A DNA stretch of 42,397 bases from Alistipes sp. Lineage in GTDB: Bacteria > Bacteroidota > Bacteroidia > Bacteroidales > Rikenellaceae. The position numbers and the translations under genes were made by a program. Location: assembly GCA_017629035.1 (NCBI GenBank), contig JAGBXX010000018.1:1-42397 (forward strand), read 5' to 3'. The notes beneath the pieces are model-generated. The model worked only from the letters and a program-made list of their open reading frames with translations. It was not told the origin of the DNA and ran no database searches. Positions 23,047 to 30,728 of the stretch are shown piece by piece (position 1 is the first letter of the stretch; each line of letters opens with the position of its first letter).

Positions 23047-23054
23047 TATCTTTG
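23047..23054 (+). promoter_or_regulatory. Promoter -7 box of the envelope-assembly operon
   Basis: TATCTTTG at 23047-23054, 10 bases before the ATG at 23065, is an exact match to TAnnTTTG. The -33 element is weak (a TTGG near 23012 is too far). The message would be almost leaderless. Confidence 0.6.
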
Positions 23055-23064
23055 CAAATTGAAT

Positions 23065-24273
23065 ATGAAGAGAACTCATTACATAGTATTGCTCGTTGTC
23101 GCAACGATGTTTGCGGCTTGTGGCAGTGGCGACAACCTCTCAGGTGGCGCCAACGGAAAGCGTGTAGTCGCTCAGGTAGATGATAAGGAACTCATGGTTC
23201 GTGATATTCTTGCCGACATGCCCGAGGGTTTGACCGGTATTGATAGTGCTACGTTTGTGCGTATGTATACCGATACGTGGGTGCTCAACCAGCTCAAGAT
23301 ATCTCGTGCCGACGAGGTGCTCACGTCGCATAAGGATATTGATCGTCTTGTGGAGGACTACCGCCAGTCGCTCATCATCCGTCAGCTCGACCAGTATTAT
23401 GTCGACAAGGAGATTGATGCCGAGATCACCCCTCGTCAGATTGCAGCGCACTACCGCCTGCACTCATCGCAGTTTAAGCTCGACCATGACAAGGTGCGTG
23501 GCGTGGTTGTTCGTGTGTCGAATAACTTCCGCAACACTTCGGCCCTCAGCGATGTGCTTCGCAGTGTGTCGGACGATGGCCTTGCGGAGCTTAGTGCCTT
23601 TGTCGAGAAGCACTCGTTGCAGATGAGTGACCTCTCGGCCGACTGGGTGTCGTTCTCTGACTTTTTGAGCTATCTGCCTACTGTGCGCACTCGCTCCTAC
23701 GACAATCTGTTGCAGAAGGGTAAGGTACAGAGCATGAAGGCTGATGATGTTGTCTTCTACTTCACCATTGTCGATATTGTTCGCAAGGGTAGCACAGCGC
23801 CACTCGAGAGTGTTGAGGATGATATTCGCCGTATGCTCTATGCAGAGCGCCGCTTTGAGATTGTTAAGAACTACGAGCAGGAGCTTAAGTACGAGGCTGT
23901 GCAGAGTGGCCGTGTGAGTGTCGATGACTCGGTGCTCATGGAAGCAATGTCCAATCGCCCAAAGATGGCTGACGACACGCCTGTAATCAAGGAGGCTGCA
24001 GATGTTGTCGAGGAGGAGGATATTGAGCAGAAGCGTGAGAGCAAGAAGGATAAGGATAGCAAAGAGGTCAAAGAAAGCAAAGATAGCAAAGAGGATAAAG
24101 AGAAGAAGTCTGATGATAAGTCAGAGCAGAAGCCTAAGGCTGAGGATAGCTCTGAGGAGTCTAAGACCGAGAAGAGCGCCTCTGAGGAGCCTGCACCTGC
24201 CGAGCAGCCTAAGGCCGAGGCTGAGAAGCCTGCCGAGAAGCCCGCAACAGAGGGCGAGGCTGATGCTGAGTAA
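23065..24273 (+). CDS. PpiC/SurA-like chaperone lipoprotein with charged tail
   Basis: A 402-residue predicted lipoprotein (lipobox FAAC, Cys19). Residues ~30-260 look like the helical chaperone region and following segment of a SurA/PrsA-type peptidyl-prolyl isomerase: VVAQVDDKELMVRDILADMP, then EITPRQIAAHYRLHSSQFKL, which precedes the isomerase module in relatives. I cannot see a complete parvulin active site, so it may act as a holdase rather than an enzyme. From about residue 300 the protein is a low-complexity tail of Lys, Glu, Ser and Asp, likely disordered. It is the first gene of a four-gene operon with a second SurA-like protein and an OstA-like protein, which suggests a role in outer-membrane biogenesis. 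The ATG at 23065 is preferred to the TTG at 23059. Confidence 0.78.
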   Translation: MKRTHYIVLLVVATMFAACGSGDNLSGGANGKRVVAQVDDKELMVRDILADMPEGLTGIDSATFVRMYTDTWVLNQLKISRADEVLTSHKDIDRLVEDYRQSLIIRQLDQYYVDKEIDAEITPRQIAAHYRLHSSQFKLDHDKVRGVVVRVSNNFRNTSALSDVLRSVSDDGLAELSAFVEKHSLQMSDLSADWVSFSDFLSYLPTVRTRSYDNLLQKGKVQSMKADDVVFYFTIVDIVRKGSTAPLESVEDDIRRMLYAERRFEIVKNYEQELKYEAVQSGRVSVDDSVLMEAMSNRPKMADDTPVIKEAADVVEEEDIEQKRESKKDKDSKEVKESKDSKEDKEKKSDDKSEQKPKAEDSSEESKTEKSASEEPAPAEQPKAEAEKPAEKPATEGEADAE

Positions 24274-24309
24274 TAACAATCTATTTGAGTTTTAAGCAAA
24301 CAGATATTT

Positions 24310-25731
24310 ATGCGTAAGATAGTTCTATTTGCGGCTACTGCCGCACTCTTGATAACTACATGTTTTATGGTCTCGGCACAACGTCGCCAGGTAATTCTGG
24401 ATAAGGTTGTGGCTATTGTTGGTGGCTCGTCGATTCTCTACTCCGAGGTTTCGGAGTATGCCGAGGCTCTTGTCATGCAGCAGCGACAGATGGGTTACAC
24501 CTCTGACCGTGATCCTATGCACGAGGCTCTCGAGTCGTTGCTCGAGCAGAAGTTGCTCTACAATCAGGCACTGCTTGATTCTGTCGAGATCAATAGTGGC
24601 GAGGTGTCGCAGCGTATCGAGGAGTATCTTCAGTCGGTTATCGACGAGGCAGGTGGTATTCAGGCTGTGGAGACACGTGAGCACATGCCTATCTTCAACT
24701 ATCGTGAGCTGCTACGTGCTCGCTACGAGGAGCAGGCCTACGCACAGGCTATGCAGGGTAACATCGTTGGTGGTGTGACCATCGTCCCAGGCGAGGTTGA
24801 GCGCTACTATCGTCGTATTGACAAGGATAGCCTTCCGATGATTGGTGAGCAGTATGTATATGCCCAGATTACTCGATTCCCCGAGTCGATGCAGGAGGCT
24901 AAGCAGCGTACCAAGGAGCGTCTACTCGATATGCGTGAGCGTATCATCACAGGCCAGACCAAGTTCTCAACACTGGCACGTATGTACTCGGTTGATGGCT
25001 CGGCACTCTATGGTGGTGAGATGCAGCCAGCACCTTCATCGATGTATGTTCGTCCCTTTGCCGAGGCTCTCGAGAAGCTCAAGCCAGGACAGGTATCCGA
25101 GATTGTAGAGACAGAGTTTGGCTTCCACATTATTGAGCTTATCGACAAGAAGGGCGAGTTGTACCACTGTCGTCACATCTTGTTGCGCCCCACATATACT
25201 CGTGATGAGTTGATTCAGCCAGCTCATAAACTTGATAGCCTTGCTCGACTCATCCGCCTCGACTCTATCTCGTTCGAGGAGGCTGCTTTGCGCTTCTCGG
25301 ACGATGCTACATCGAAGATGAATGGTGGTATCGTGTCGAACCACGATATCTTGGCTCGTCAGGGTGTCTACGATGGTGCTCGTCTTACAGCAACTCGCTT
25401 CCTCAAGGAGGATTTCGGTCTTGAGGGTGGTAAGGCTCTTGAGGACTACAACGCACTTATGCGTCTTAAGGTAGGCGAGGTGTCGGATTCGTTCCAGACC
25501 GTGGACTTCAATGGCAACCAGATGAGCAAAATCGTAAAGCTCGTCGAGATTGTGCCTTCGCACGTAGCTTCGCTCGAGGATGACTATATCCGACTCGAGG
25601 AGATGGCACTCAACGACAAGCGTGAGCGAGTATTCCGTGAGTGGCTCAACCGCAAGATAGAGTCGATGTATGTATATATCGACCCAGAGTTCCGTGATTG
25701 GAACTTCGTAAATCGTAATTGGATAAAGTAG
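24310..25731 (+). CDS. SurA-like periplasmic peptidyl-prolyl isomerase
   Basis: SurA chaperones unfolded outer-membrane proteins across the periplasm. This 473-residue protein has a signal peptide ending VSAQ (about residue 23). A SurA N-terminal domain follows (LDKVVAIVGGSSILYSEVSEYAEAL), then two parvulin-like modules. The first contains FSTLARMYSVDGSALYGGEM and FGFHIIELIDKKG (~175-280). The second starts YHCRHILLRP and contains FEEAALRFSDDATSKMNGG (~283-410). Length and order match E. coli SurA (~430). It starts 36 bases after the lipoprotein gene and ends 17 bases before the OstA-like gene, consistent with one operon. The two modules differ, and which is catalytic cannot be decided here. 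Confidence 0.9.
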   Translation: MRKIVLFAATAALLITTCFMVSAQRRQVILDKVVAIVGGSSILYSEVSEYAEALVMQQRQMGYTSDRDPMHEALESLLEQKLLYNQALLDSVEINSGEVSQRIEEYLQSVIDEAGGIQAVETREHMPIFNYRELLRARYEEQAYAQAMQGNIVGGVTIVPGEVERYYRRIDKDSLPMIGEQYVYAQITRFPESMQEAKQRTKERLLDMRERIITGQTKFSTLARMYSVDGSALYGGEMQPAPSSMYVRPFAEALEKLKPGQVSEIVETEFGFHIIELIDKKGELYHCRHILLRPTYTRDELIQPAHKLDSLARLIRLDSISFEEAALRFSDDATSKMNGGIVSNHDILARQGVYDGARLTATRFLKEDFGLEGGKALEDYNALMRLKVGEVSDSFQTVDFNGNQMSKIVKLVEIVPSHVASLEDDYIRLEEMALNDKRERVFREWLNRKIESMYVYIDPEFRDWNFVNRNWIK

Positions 25732-25748
25732 GAAGAAGATTATAGAGC

Positions 25749-28517
25749 ATGCGCCGTAAAAATATAGCAACGCTAATTGTACTTACGCTCGTGGCTGGAT
25801 TGTTTCTCTATGCCGCAAGTGGAAAGATGTTTGTGAGATACTCCACTCTTGACAGTGTCGAGCCCGTGATGGCCTCGGCCAAGTTCGAGGCGATGATACC
25901 TCAGCAGCCCAAGGATGGTGCTCAGGATAAACGTATGGTCGACATGACTGCCGACGATAGTTATCTTATCGAGAAGGGCGACTCTACGATATTTATTCTC
26001 GTGGGTCACTTTGCGGCACACCACAATGGCGCTGTTATTATTGCCGATAGTGCTGTGCGCTACTCTAACCAGAGCTTCGAGTGCTTTGGTAATGTGCTTA
26101 TTAATCAGAACTCTACATATATCTACGGCGAGCGTGCTGAGTACAACCGTATGAACAATACGGCTAAGGTCTTCTCGAAACTTGTCAAGGTTGTCGACGA
26201 GGATGCTGTGATGTACACCTACCACTGTGAGTTTAATACTGCTAAGTCGCTTGGTGAGTTCAGTGGTGGCTGCTATGTTGAGAAGGGCGAGAACCTGCTC
26301 GAGGCCGAGCGTGGCTACTACAACACCAAGACCCATGAGCTCAAGGCTGTGCGCCGTGTTCAGATGCGTGACGACACCTATCAGGTGATTAGCGATTCGG
26401 TGATCTTCAATACTCAGACCGAGGATGCCGAGTATTTCACAAATACACATATCTGGAATAAGAACGACGAGTATCTATATGCCGATGCTGGTACATATAC
26501 CAAGCGTAACGATCTACATCACCTCACACGCAATGCCTATATCCTCTCGCCCGAGCGTGAGATATGGAGCGACACGGTGATGTACTATCGTACCGATGGC
26601 CATATTATCGCACGTCGCAATATTCAGGTCGACGATACTACGCAGAAGGTGTTGGGTTATGCCGACTATGCTGAGTGGTGGGATGTTCCGGGCAATGCCT
26701 TCTTTACACGTCGTCCATCGTTGATCAACTACGACCCCGAGCAGTCAGATTCTGTTTATCTCTCGGCCGACACATTGTGGATGTACACCATCCCTGTTCG
26801 CCCTGAGCCCGAGGTGCAGGATACTACGAATGTAGCAAGCGAGGAGAGCCGTGAGCAGGGTAGAGAGCGTGAGGTTGAGCAGCGAGATGCATCTTCTCAG
26901 GCCGATAGCGTGCGCCCTGAGTCACGTGAGCAGAAGCGTGATGTTGAGAAGCGTGGAGAGCCACGTGAGCAGAAGCGTGAGGAGTCAACACCTAAGAGAG
27001 AGAGCCCACGAGGCGAGGCTGCTCCTGTAGATCGAGGAGCTAAGGTCGATGATAAGGCTGCCGCTCGTCGTGATCGTGATGCTGAGCGTGGCGAGAAGGT
27101 CGATGCTCGTGGTCGTGATGGCGAGACTCGTTATGACCCTACGGCACAACGCCCACAGCCAGGCGAGGCACGACCATCGGCGCCTCAAGATACCGTTGAA
27201 CGTGAGTCTGTTGTGAGCGAGAGTGTAGATAGCTTGCCTATCGCTGATACTCTTGCCGTGGATAGCTTGAAGGAGGATACTACAAAATATACACCTAAGC
27301 AGTTGCGCCGTCGTGCCAAGATGGCTAAGAGAGCTGAGCGAGAGCAGATCAAGGCTGCCCAGAAGGCTATTCAGGACTCTATTGATGCTATTGAGCAGGC
27401 CTACAAGGACTCTGTGCAGCATATTCGTGATTCGTTGCTCCGCATCAAGATTGATACTATCATTGCCCAGCGCATTGAGCGCAGCTCACGCCTTGCCGAC
27501 GAGGAGGCAGCACGTATCGAGCGCATCAAGCAGAAGGCCGAGCAGCGTCGTCGCCACAAGATTGACAAGGCTAAGGCTTGTGCATTGAAGCGTGGCAGAG
27601 AGTACAAGGGAGAGGATTACGATCCTGAGGATACAACAACACTATCTCTTGGTGACTCTATTGCTGCTGCACCAGCTATCGACTCATTGCGTGATACTAC
27701 CATGGTGGACTCGCTCCTTGATAGTACAGCACTGCGCCCTGTTATCCCTGAGGATAGTGCCTACAAGATGATCAAGGCCTACCGCCATGTCAAGATGTTC
27801 CGCTCTGATTCGCAGATGATATGTGACTCACTCGTGGCACTTAACACCGACTCGATAGTACGCATGTATATCAACCCAGTGATGTGGAACGAGCAGAATC
27901 AGATCAAGTCCGACTCATCGTGGATATACACCGAGCGCCAGATGATTACCAAGGCGCACTTCATGGGTGCACCAATCATGGGCTCACAGATTGATACTGC
28001 TTGCTACAATCAGGTCAAGGGTAAGGATATGAAGGCATTCTTCCGTGATGGCGAGGTATATCGCTACGATGTTGATGGCAACGCCCAGACACTCTACTAT
28101 ATGCAGGAGGAGGATGCTCCCGATGTTACGGCGATGATGTATATCGAGAGCTCGGCTATCAGCTTCCACCTCGACGAGGGTCAGATGGATCATATCGTCT
28201 TCAAGCAGAATCCAGAGTATGTGCTCTATCCTATGAATATGATTCCTGACACGCAGGAGCGTATCCTTCAGGGCTTTGAGTGGAACGATACGTTGCGACC
28301 CACACGCCACCAGATTTGCGACCGTGCTCACCGCAGCTCACGTCGCCTGAGCGTGGCCAAGATACAGAAGCCTACGTTCCCAACACATGAGCGTATAGAC
28401 TACGACCGTCGTCGCCTTGTGGAGAATAGAGTGTGGAAGGATCGCCACGAGCGCCTCAGCCCCGATGTTGTCGAGTGGCGCAACTCATGTCCATCATATA
28501 AGAACAGACGTAAGTAA
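25749..28517 (+). CDS. OstA/LptA-like protein with a large charged insert
   Basis: OstA/LptA-fold proteins form the beta-jellyroll bridge that carries lipopolysaccharide across the periplasm. The 922-residue product has an N-terminal hydrophobic anchor (IATLIVLTLVAGLFLYAA). Residues ~75-345 show the repeating pattern of OstA domains (ADSAVRYSNQSFECFGNVLINQ, AERGYYNTKTHELKAVRRVQM). Residues ~350-665 are a low-complexity insert, first rich in Arg, Glu and Asp, then a long charged helix likely to form coiled coil. Residues ~670-922 resume the OstA-like pattern (AYRHVKMFRSDSQMICDSLVAL). I infer one OstA-like unit interrupted by the insert. Its stop codon overlaps the start of the next gene by one base, indicating translational coupling. 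It probably works with the SurA-like proteins upstream. Confidence 0.85.
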   Translation: MRRKNIATLIVLTLVAGLFLYAASGKMFVRYSTLDSVEPVMASAKFEAMIPQQPKDGAQDKRMVDMTADDSYLIEKGDSTIFILVGHFAAHHNGAVIIADSAVRYSNQSFECFGNVLINQNSTYIYGERAEYNRMNNTAKVFSKLVKVVDEDAVMYTYHCEFNTAKSLGEFSGGCYVEKGENLLEAERGYYNTKTHELKAVRRVQMRDDTYQVISDSVIFNTQTEDAEYFTNTHIWNKNDEYLYADAGTYTKRNDLHHLTRNAYILSPEREIWSDTVMYYRTDGHIIARRNIQVDDTTQKVLGYADYAEWWDVPGNAFFTRRPSLINYDPEQSDSVYLSADTLWMYTIPVRPEPEVQDTTNVASEESREQGREREVEQRDASSQADSVRPESREQKRDVEKRGEPREQKREESTPKRESPRGEAAPVDRGAKVDDKAAARRDRDAERGEKVDARGRDGETRYDPTAQRPQPGEARPSAPQDTVERESVVSESVDSLPIADTLAVDSLKEDTTKYTPKQLRRRAKMAKRAEREQIKAAQKAIQDSIDAIEQAYKDSVQHIRDSLLRIKIDTIIAQRIERSSRLADEEAARIERIKQKAEQRRRHKIDKAKACALKRGREYKGEDYDPEDTTTLSLGDSIAAAPAIDSLRDTTMVDSLLDSTALRPVIPEDSAYKMIKAYRHVKMFRSDSQMICDSLVALNTDSIVRMYINPVMWNEQNQIKSDSSWIYTERQMITKAHFMGAPIMGSQIDTACYNQVKGKDMKAFFRDGEVYRYDVDGNAQTLYYMQEEDAPDVTAMMYIESSAISFHLDEGQMDHIVFKQNPEYVLYPMNMIPDTQERILQGFEWNDTLRPTRHQICDRAHRSSRRLSVAKIQKPTFPTHERIDYDRRRLVENRVWKDRHERLSPDVVEWRNSCPSYKNRRK

Positions 28518-29821
28518 TGAAACGTAGTAATCGAAATATACTCGCCCAGGCGCTTGCAGTGGCCTTTATGCTCATTGCTCCAGCGCTCCACGCACAGCCT
28601 TCAGTGGGCTGTGACCCTTACCGTACTCGACTCATACCATATCCTACGGCCACCTTGGCCGAGGCTCGTGGCCTTGAGCGTCAGCGCTATATGCAGCCTA
28701 TTACCGAGTGGCAGCGCCCCGAGACAAATATCCTTCGTGGTAAATATACCTTCCCATTCTCGTGGCTTGAGCGTCAGGTATATCTGCGTGTCGAGGATGC
28801 ATATCAGCCCTACGAGGTATATATAAATGGTAAGCTCGCCGGCTCATCACGCAACGGCTTTGGTGCTGCCGAGTTTAATATCACCAAGATCTCGCGCGAG
28901 GATAGCAACGATGTAGAGATTCGTCTGCTTTCGGCTGAGGAGGTCAATAAGATTGAGTGCTTTGCCCGTGCCTCTAATACACTCAAGGTATATGTAATCT
29001 CGCAGCCTCGTGTGCGTGTGCGTGATATTACATGGAGTGCTGAGATAGGTCAAAATGGTATTGCCAATAGCAACTTCGAGGTTGTGATGCACAATGCCAC
29101 ACTTGGCGATAAGGTATCTACGCTCTACTACGAGCTCTATCTCAACGATACTATTCGCCTGGGTGGTGGTCGTCGTGATGTTGCTCTGGGTAAGTATGGT
29201 GTTGACACTATGCGCTTTGGTATTGCCGTACCCGACTCTATTGTGTGGTCGAGCGCCAAGCCTCAGCATGTGCGCCTTATGCTCAAGAATCGTGTCGAAG
29301 GTCGTGATGTGGAGTTCTACGACTTCCCCGTGGCTCTTCGTGAGCTGAGCTATGATAAGGGTGAGTTTACGATCAATAATCGTGTTGAGACTATTGACTT
29401 TCATGCTATGTCGCCCGCCTCGAGTGTCGACGATGTTGCTAAGGTCTACGAGCGTGGTGTGCGTGCTATACGCTTTACTGCGGGCTGCGTAGACGATGCG
29501 GTGCTTGATTACTGCGACCAGCAGGGTATATATGTTGCCGTGACAGCACCTATCGACTCATCGTTGTCGGGCAACTCACGTAAGCGTGGTGGTAACCCCT
29601 CGAACGACCCTAAGTGGCGTGAGGACTATGTCGAGCGCACACTTCAAATGTTCTACACCACCAAGCGTCACCCTTCGGTTATCGCCTATGTTCTGGCCGA
29701 TAATAGCTCAAATGGTATCTGCTTGTATGAGAGCTACCTTGCTCTTAAGGCGGTAGTTGGTGATCGTCCGCTATTCTACTACGACGGTGGCAAGGAGTGG
29801 AATACCGACCATCTGAAGTAA
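28517..29821 (+). CDS. Truncated GH2-like protein, probable pseudoenzyme
   Basis: A 434-residue secreted protein (signal peptide ending LHAQ) with the domain order of glycoside hydrolase family 2: a jelly-roll sugar-binding domain (QVYLRVEDAYQPYEVYINGKLAG, ~50-160), an Ig-like domain (~165-280) and the first part of the TIM barrel (DYCDQQGIYVAVTAPI, then HPSVIAYVLADNSSNG). In active enzymes the last motif reads like HPSIIMWSLGNES with a catalytic Glu after Asn; here that position is Ser397. The protein also ends before the barrel strand carrying the nucleophile. It is therefore unlikely to be a glycosidase. It is translationally coupled (TAATG overlap) to the OstA-like gene, so a structural or glycan-binding role in envelope assembly is plausible. 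Confidence 0.8.
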   Translation: MKRSNRNILAQALAVAFMLIAPALHAQPSVGCDPYRTRLIPYPTATLAEARGLERQRYMQPITEWQRPETNILRGKYTFPFSWLERQVYLRVEDAYQPYEVYINGKLAGSSRNGFGAAEFNITKISREDSNDVEIRLLSAEEVNKIECFARASNTLKVYVISQPRVRVRDITWSAEIGQNGIANSNFEVVMHNATLGDKVSTLYYELYLNDTIRLGGGRRDVALGKYGVDTMRFGIAVPDSIVWSSAKPQHVRLMLKNRVEGRDVEFYDFPVALRELSYDKGEFTINNRVETIDFHAMSPASSVDDVAKVYERGVRAIRFTAGCVDDAVLDYCDQQGIYVAVTAPIDSSLSGNSRKRGGNPSNDPKWREDYVERTLQMFYTTKRHPSVIAYVLADNSSNGICLYESYLALKAVVGDRPLFYYDGGKEWNTDHLK

Positions 29822-29841
29822 TGGGGTATATATAAATAGTT

Positions 29842-29874
29842 AGGGGTTGTCCACCGGACAACCCCTAATTGTTT
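29842..29874. terminator. Shared terminator after the envelope operon
   Basis: AGGGGTTGTCC (29842-29852) pairs perfectly with GGACAACCCCT (29856-29866) around a 3-base loop, between convergent genes. A T-rich segment follows on the plus strand. Confidence 0.88.
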
Positions 29875-29895: not shown

Positions 29896-30177
29896 CTACT
29901 CGCAAACTGCGCTGAGGTCAGCAAACAAACCTGCGAAGCTCTCAGCCATGTCACGACGAAGTGCTGAGTAGTGCTTCTTAACCAAAGAGCGGTTCTTAGG
30001 CTCTGCTGGGTTGTTAGCCTTAACGTAGAGAGCATTGCGCAAGTCAACACCCTTAAGCATAAGTGCTACAATCTGCTCCTCCTTGTTGGGCTGTACAAAT
30101 GCTGCCATCTCGCAGTCAAAAACAAACTCCTCCAAGCGGTAGTCAATCTCCTTCTTCAAAACTCGTAAATTTGCCAT
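29896..30177 (-). CDS. Small conserved hypothetical protein
   Basis: A 93-residue protein with no signal peptide or membrane segment, rich in charged residues and probably helical (LRVLKKEIDYRLEEFVFDCEMAAFVQP, then KKHYSALRRDMAESFAGLFADLSAVCE). I do not recognise a named domain, but the composition, good promoter and matching terminator argue that it is real. It is monocistronic and cytoplasmic. Codon use resembles ordinary housekeeping genes here. Confidence 0.75.
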   Translation of the reverse strand: MANLRVLKKEIDYRLEEFVFDCEMAAFVQPNKEEQIVALMLKGVDLRNALYVKANNPAEPKNRSLVKKHYSALRRDMAESFAGLFADLSAVCE

Positions 30178-30317: not shown

Positions 30318-30728
30318 ATGGCAGCAAGAGTTTGTAGTGAATGTGGTGGACTTGTAGCATCGTCATTGTCGATGTGTCCACATTGTGGTTATGCGATTGG
30401 CCGTTCTGATGGTGTTCAGGATGAGTATAACAGTAATTATTCGCAAGCTAACAACTATGCGAGGCCAGAGAATTATGGACTTAATCCCCATAATAATATA
30501 TTGTGGCCAGTGATTGCACTCGTATTCTTTTGGCCATGTGCTATTGGCTCACTTATATACTATATTAAATCGGACCAGGCGTGGAACGTGGGTAATGCCG
30601 CATTGGCAAGGAGCTATGGCGAGTCATCGGCTAAGTGGGGCCACGCCTCAATATGGATTGTTATCATCATTTTGATATTTACCATCGCCTGCTTTGCGTG
30701 CGTTGGATCATGTATGTATGATTATTAA
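30318..30728 (+). CDS. Zinc-ribbon CD225-like membrane protein
   Basis: A 136-residue protein from the ATG at 30318. The N-terminus holds a zinc ribbon with two CxxC knuckles (CSECGG and CPHCGY). After a Asn/Tyr/Ser-rich linker come two hydrophobic segments: LWPVIALVFFWPCAIGSLIYYIKSD, then a short loop WNVGNAALARSYGESSAKWGH, then IVIIILIFTIACFACVGS. This two-helix layout with a small-residue intracellular loop matches the CD225/dispanin family, which includes eukaryotic IFITM proteins and many bacterial proteins of unknown role. It overlaps the start of ispE by 11 bases and is probably cotranscribed with it. A membrane-shaping or regulatory function is inferred from family resemblance only. 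Confidence 0.8.
   Translation: MAARVCSECGGLVASSLSMCPHCGYAIGRSDGVQDEYNSNYSQANNYARPENYGLNPHNNILWPVIALVFFWPCAIGSLIYYIKSDQAWNVGNAALARSYGESSAKWGHASIWIVIIILIFTIACFACVGSCMYDY

Follow-up and report, generated by a model that had tools for sequence, protein, structure and literature searches.

The window analyzed in this work, a stretch of 42,397 nucleotides from an Alistipes-like (Rikenellaceae) genome, carries on its plus strand a block of four genes that encode, in this order, a SurA-like lipoprotein, SurA, an OstA/LptA-like protein and a truncated GH2-like protein. Gene 1 (23065..24273) encodes 402 aa; the list of open reading frames places its start at a TTG at 23059, and we use the ATG at 23065. 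Gene 2 (24310..25731) encodes a SurA of 473 aa with two PPIC-type parvulin stretches, gene 3 (25749..28517) the OstA/LptA-like protein of 922 aa, and gene 4 (28517..29821) a product of 434 aa that is probably an exported half-barrel pseudo-beta-galactosidase, assigned here to family A. An earlier note on this DNA had described a co-directional four-gene block with gaps of 36, 17 and -1 bases, which agrees with the ORF coordinates, and the TAATG that it reported, in which the stop of gene 3 overlaps the start of gene 4, is present at 28515..28519 of the plus strand.

Signals for transcription were searched for by consensus. The scan for sigma-70 promoters returned 11 candidates vs 7.8 in shuffled sequences (sd 2.9), which is not clearly above chance, and no significant promoter was found by consensus scan before gene 1. 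The pattern TTTG-N17-23-TAnnTTTG, which we take to be the consensus of the Bacteroidota-type two-box promoter, has 11 matches in the window where 0.4 would be expected from shuffles, consistent with promoters of the Bacteroidota type; the sole match within the block lies inside gene 1 (23229), and a lone TATCTTTG is found at 23047-23054, ahead of gene 1. Downstream of gene 4, a terminator-like hairpin of 13 pairs (29840..29868, listed for the minus strand only) lies between convergent genes; it is not significant, the region containing 5 terminator-like hairpins vs 4.2 in shuffles, a number not above chance. The gene convergent with gene 4 across this hairpin (29896-30177, minus strand) encodes a protein of 93 aa that has no Pfam match. 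Further on, 30318-30728 encodes a small protein that begins like a zinc ribbon and contains a CD225 domain (interferon-induced transmembrane-like, E 3.5e-10); this gene overlaps the start of ispE.

Predicted products of genes 1 to 3

Both the N-domain and the parvulin domains of SurA are found in gene 2. The Rotamase model matches two stretches (E 4.7e-24, 85.6 bits vs a cut-off of 21.7), the SurA_N models score below their cut-off, and structure comparison gives matches to PDB 8hm4_A (E 7.4e-62) and to SurA itself (1m5y, E 5.7e-24), with SurA structures aligned from residue 28. Gene 1 belongs to no family above cut-off (the best match is SurA_N_3, E 0.02) and has no parvulin domain by sequence; its predicted fold is similar to SurA/PEB4/PpiD, Cys19 is conserved, and the C-terminal tail is charged and disordered. 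The proposal of two SurA-type chaperones is thus upheld by sequence for gene 2, whereas gene 1 is probably SurA-like, to judge from its predicted fold. The same division applies when the two proteins are compared with the SurA and BAM-associated chaperones of Bacteroidota (Bt3848 SurA, BamJ and BamK) of PMC12578637, gene 2 being alike by sequence and gene 1 probably so by predicted fold. The words OstA and Alistipes do not occur in the text of that article, so the four-gene block is not treated there.

The OstA/LptA-like identity of gene 3 holds, as its OstA_2 domain scores above cut-off (E 1e-17, 64.7 bits vs 21.2); LptD_N matches with E 2.1e-5, the LptA equivalog model TIGR03002 reaches 13.8 bits, under its cut-off of 71.7, and the protein contains a long, low-complexity charged insert. 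It is the sole OstA_2 match in its own genome, which is 85% complete. No match to LptD (PF04453) was obtained in this genome, from which nothing follows, since the same model finds LptD in just 2 of 14 control genomes.

Architecture and conservation of gene 4

Gene 4 combines a GH2 N domain (Glyco_hydro_2_N, E 1.9e-6) with a partial GH2 barrel that matches positions 37-163 of the 302 in the profile, and it aligns to about residues 13-500 of LacZ. In its confident structural model (pLDDT 93.7), a jelly roll and an Ig domain precede a (beta-alpha)4 half-barrel. The two N-terminal beta-sandwich domains ahead of the barrel appear both in the model and in the PDB alignment (residues 23-434), and the model has four beta-alpha units only in place of the complete (beta-alpha)8 catalytic barrel. 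The truncation is not peculiar to this protein, the match to the barrel profile ending at 163-170 of 302 in all ten proteins scanned. The available text of PMC5145203 describes five GH2 architectures with a central TIM barrel common to all of them.

In LacZ, the acid/base Glu that follows an Asn is E461 of the pair N460-E461, and the nucleophile Glu is E537. Gene 4 carries D395-N396 at the position of N460-E461, and among 99 relatives the acid/base column holds Glu in only 14, two of which are linked to OstA. The nucleophile column is empty in 80/80 short forms and holds Glu in 27/27 aligned full-length relatives; both catalytic Glu are found in all 29 full-length LacZ relatives, including L003 and L174. 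Residues conserved in full LacZ are mostly replaced at positions 299, 300, 322, 343, 345, 347 and 349 of gene 4, which presumably correspond to the metal and substrate sites of LacZ. By contrast with LacZ-type GH2 beta-galactosidases such as E. coli LacZ and the B. thetaiotaomicron proteins 3bga and 3dec, gene 4 stops near LacZ residue 500 and has no second half-barrel, nucleophile or later domains, and it has lost most of its acid/base and metal-site residues. The designation as a GH2 pseudoenzyme is supported by both sequence and model: with the half-barrel that bears the nucleophile gone and the acid/base Glu mostly replaced, gene 4 should not perform ordinary GH2 catalysis.

One could still suppose that the protein is an enzyme, the half-barrel dimerizing or pairing with paralog B (described below) so as to rebuild a working or altered active site. 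The clean (beta-alpha)4 unit of the model would suit such an arrangement, as would the fact that paralogs A and B end at about the same position of the barrel. Engineered half-barrels of a GH1 beta-glucosidase, as reported in the available part of PMC4591997, turn catalytically active on an activation accompanied by a size increase that is read there as oligomerization, so that some hydrolytic activity may survive in gene 4. What these half-barrels share with gene 4 is that a (beta/alpha)4 half of a glycosidase barrel stands without its counterpart; they differ in being laboratory-made from GH1, whereas gene 4 is natural, conserved and joined to two beta domains. The missing nucleophile half and the replaced acid/base, metal-site and substrate-site residues nevertheless make a surviving GH2 enzyme very unlikely. 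Nor does the missing half appear to be supplied by another gene: when 27 second halves of the barrel were searched with tblastn against 155 sources, L003 and L053 gave matches, at their true LacZ genes, and L065 a weak one 14 kb into the locus; no other source matched, and a second half encoded nearby was rejected as a candidate.

The truncation relative to LacZ could also suggest a decaying pseudogene or an assembly artifact. We consider this hardly credible, as it is contradicted by the conservation data: the frames are intact, the end point is identical on 31 distinct contigs and recurs in many other species, and dN/dS lies between 0.12 and 0.20. Over four pairs (NG86), dN/dS is 0.115-0.202 for the GH2 gene, 0.144-0.187 for OstA and 0.089-0.121 for SurA, values that are rough because dS is near saturation (0.87 to 1.97). 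Gene 4 is under purifying selection. Given the low dN/dS, and frames that are intact and terminate at a similar point across many species, we take it to be a working protein without ordinary GH2 catalysis; evolution has kept it, and its function is probably something other than the cleavage of sugars. The most conserved stretch of the family comprises codons 351-365 (29567..29611, plus strand), a segment ending in GGNPSNDP, where the mean frequency of the majority residue over 99 relatives is 0.71 vs 0.38 to 0.59 in the other six regions compared. In the model this segment is the loop after the third barrel strand and lies on the former catalytic face. Signal-like N-termini, recognized by visual inspection, and an N-terminal helix in the model lead us to infer that the product is exported and periplasmic.

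Distribution of the pseudoenzyme family

Relatives of the gene 4 product are far more widespread than the arrangement with OstA. In a sample of 200 Rikenellaceae genomes, 198 have a match at E 1e-25 or better, a figure to which true LacZ genes and paralog B may contribute, and in 162 the best match is 1e-45 or better (a count from the table, in which matches were not each inspected). In 24 genomes of other families, the best match is 5e-28 and belongs to a full-length frame. When 149 genomes of the order were searched at E 1e-40 or better, nearly all frames from other families among the matches listed were at least 1000 aa long; the shorter frames among those matches (530 aa in G042, 565 in G269, 720 in G059, 467 in G053 and 888 in G356) may be due to contig ends. 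Partial GH2 genes at contig ends are seen in L036 and L044.

The Rikenellaceae have two paralogs, A (gene 4) and B. In the genome of the window, B is a half-barrel pseudo-GH2 of 442 aa (G000:C41:68314-69414) that also ends at an EWNSD motif and adjoins genes reading as AsnRS and RpoN. A search for B in 22 genomes of 17 other genera gave, by reading, short B-like frames in 15; the remaining seven have full-length frames (G071, G073, G081), a frame of 720 residues (G067) and frames of 499-582 residues (G066, G080, G085), the last three falling outside the B group in the tree. This comparison leaves out L194, L198, L205, L206, L207 and L211, where the longest frame is not GH2, and, deliberately, L216-L218.

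Proteins of family A in other genera are longer, 556 to 698 aa in 18 loci. They share with gene 4 the jelly roll, the Ig domain, the half-barrel, the deletion and a similar GGNPSNDP-type loop, but they have an additional C-terminus that matches LacZ domain 4 and they are not located beside OstA. The domain 4 match follows the half-barrel in 6/6 long A proteins scanned, exceeding the Pfam cut-off in three. The A proteins of Alistipes in the tree are short, with the exception of L030 (G018) at 594 aa.

Linkage with OstA

Within one clade of the gut bacteria of the genus Alistipes, the order gene 1-SurA-OstA-GH2 is intact in all 25 loci with long flanks, the window excluded, so the operon-like, co-directional block proposed for the window is conserved there. 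The outer neighbors are reshuffled: SpoT lies upstream in 7/24 loci with enough sequence, and IspE downstream in 1/13. An intact block amid reshuffled surroundings indicates that the GH2-like gene acts as an operon member in this clade. The A-type gene of the OstA-linked clade occurs in 20 of the 200 sampled Rikenellaceae genomes, the genome of the window included, and is adjacent to OstA in each of the 20. The TAATG overlap itself is not conserved. Over the 31 distinct loci of the clade that remain after removal of eight same-contig repeats (L037, L085-L089, L119, L127), the gap between OstA and GH2 is -1 in three, 2 to 17 in 27 and 84 in one, with a median of 3; recomputation for L006 and L116 gave 3 in both. 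Inspection of the sequences shows that the GH2 genes of the clade start with codons of their own and encode hydrophobic N-termini. Two long open frames, listed with 1351 residues in G231 and 1381 in G235, were considered as OstA-GH2 fusions and rejected, as a TAG separates the two genes at the junctions.

Outside this clade the picture changes. No OstA was found near the A-type gene in the fetched flanks of 41/41 loci, some of which end at contig ends, and a general partnership between the GH2-like gene and OstA across Bacteroidales is not supported. The comparison of gene neighborhoods that the earlier note had offered as a refuting test is therefore divided in its outcome, the gene being always adjacent to OstA in one clade and not so placed elsewhere in the family; stable linkage with SurA and OstA is confined to that clade and does not extend across the whole family.

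The history of the linkage can be followed in the tree and in sister genomes. In a tree computed in quick mode with no bootstrap, a single branch with SH-aLRT 100 separates the 30 OstA-linked copies from the rest; the tree omits identical copies as well as fragments shorter than 380 aa and proteins longer than 760 aa. In the sister genome G098, OstA and the GH2 gene are on one strand but 5,069 nt apart, the GH2 gene lying downstream, beside an esterase gene and an HsdR-like gene; the other sister, G167, has the same GH2-esterase-HsdR group and no OstA within the fetched 19 kb. In six OstA-linked genomes the HsdR-like gene is on another contig or, in G163, more than 100 kb away, and no GH2 match was found within about 1.5 kb on each side of it. 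In Alistipes that do not have the linkage, 10 loci could be read beyond the end of OstA, and in six of them the frame that follows reads as homoserine sulfhydrylase-like. G011, which has a clade-like OstA (54% identity) on a contig that ends inside OstA, was left out of the linkage count. The presence of other genes behind OstA in non-linked Alistipes, together with the sister genomes and the fate of the HsdR-like gene, indicates that gene 4 moved or was brought behind an existing group of three genes. The link arose once, later than the family itself, and is a derived trait of one clade, so that the remaining members of the family function without it. In another Alistipes group (loci L091-L095 and L097), a different gene stands behind OstA on its strand, an O-acetylhomoserine sulfhydrylase-like frame of 428-436 aa.

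Proposed role of gene 4

The reading that we favor, with a probability of roughly 0.55, is that genes 1-4 form an operon in this clade and that gene 4 encodes an exported, non-catalytic GH2 remnant that was recruited behind ostA and serves as a periplasmic binder, probably as an oligomer. Genes 1-3 would be envelope-assembly factors (a SurA-like lipoprotein, SurA and an OstA/LptA-like protein). Gene 4 would be what remains of a LacZ-type GH2, namely a jelly roll resembling a sugar-binding domain, followed by an Ig-like domain and the (beta-alpha)4 half-barrel, retained in Rikenellaceae as a non-catalytic protein before the operon link existed. A single later rearrangement would have placed it behind ostA, so that it would be made together with the factors for OMP and LPS assembly. 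The conserved 351-365 loop and the open face of the half-barrel most likely bind a glycan or a protein partner in the periplasm, and the product probably works as an oligomer, as the open edge of the half-barrel would favor dimers. Under this reading gene 4 would be co-transcribed with its neighbors, and its product would have a ligand and a role in the envelope.

A serious rival, tentative in our estimation, is that gene 4 is a bystander with an old periplasmic function, for example the sensing or holding of galactosides or mucin glycans, and that its position behind ostA is accidental and supplies a promoter only. Its weight comes from the fact that the greater part of the family has no OstA link, whether elsewhere in the genus or in other genera. 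Moreover, paralog B has an AsnRS-like and/or RpoN-like gene close by in 19 of 20 fetched loci, and elsewhere A adjoins malic-enzyme-like, HsdR-like, or histidine kinase and LytTR genes (all names by reading of sequences), none of which belongs to envelope assembly. Against a simple accident stand the persistence of the GH2 gene beside OstA in every long-flank locus despite reshuffled outer neighbors, and the gap of a few bases in 30 of the 31 distinct loci. Since the family extends beyond the linkage and includes an unlinked paralog, we go no further than saying that gene 4 could be the glycan-binding or scaffold component of LPS/OMP delivery that had been suggested for it. A bolder version, which we regard as improbable, is that the half-barrels of A and B dimerize or pair as a pseudo-barrel and bind glycans or client proteins in the periplasm, the A protein of the clade having become a dedicated accessory subunit of SurA/OstA-driven assembly of the outer membrane or of LPS.

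If the link of our favored reading is functional, gene 4 is a concrete candidate for an additional factor, particular to this lineage, in the outer-membrane assembly of Bacteroidota. The family of half-barrel pseudoenzymes is, however, more interesting than the operon. Among the titles and abstracts listed by our searches of the non-subscription literature, none describes an OstA-GH2 operon or a family of truncated GH2 proteins from Alistipes or Rikenellaceae. A half-barrel that is natural, conserved and descended from a modern (beta-alpha)8 enzyme would be a good case for the old question of self-standing half-barrels, and the family offers a graded series that runs from full-length LacZ with both Glu, through the half-barrel with domain 4 and the half-barrel alone, to capture by an operon. 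It also carries the warning that Rikenellaceae genes matching GH2 domain models need not be enzymes. Loci from other genera include a full-length relative of LacZ (L208, G081:C5 around 41543-42673, a frame of 1046 residues) in which the acid/base Glu is replaced by Lys and the nucleophile Glu by Ala, apparently a full-length but dead beta-galactosidase.
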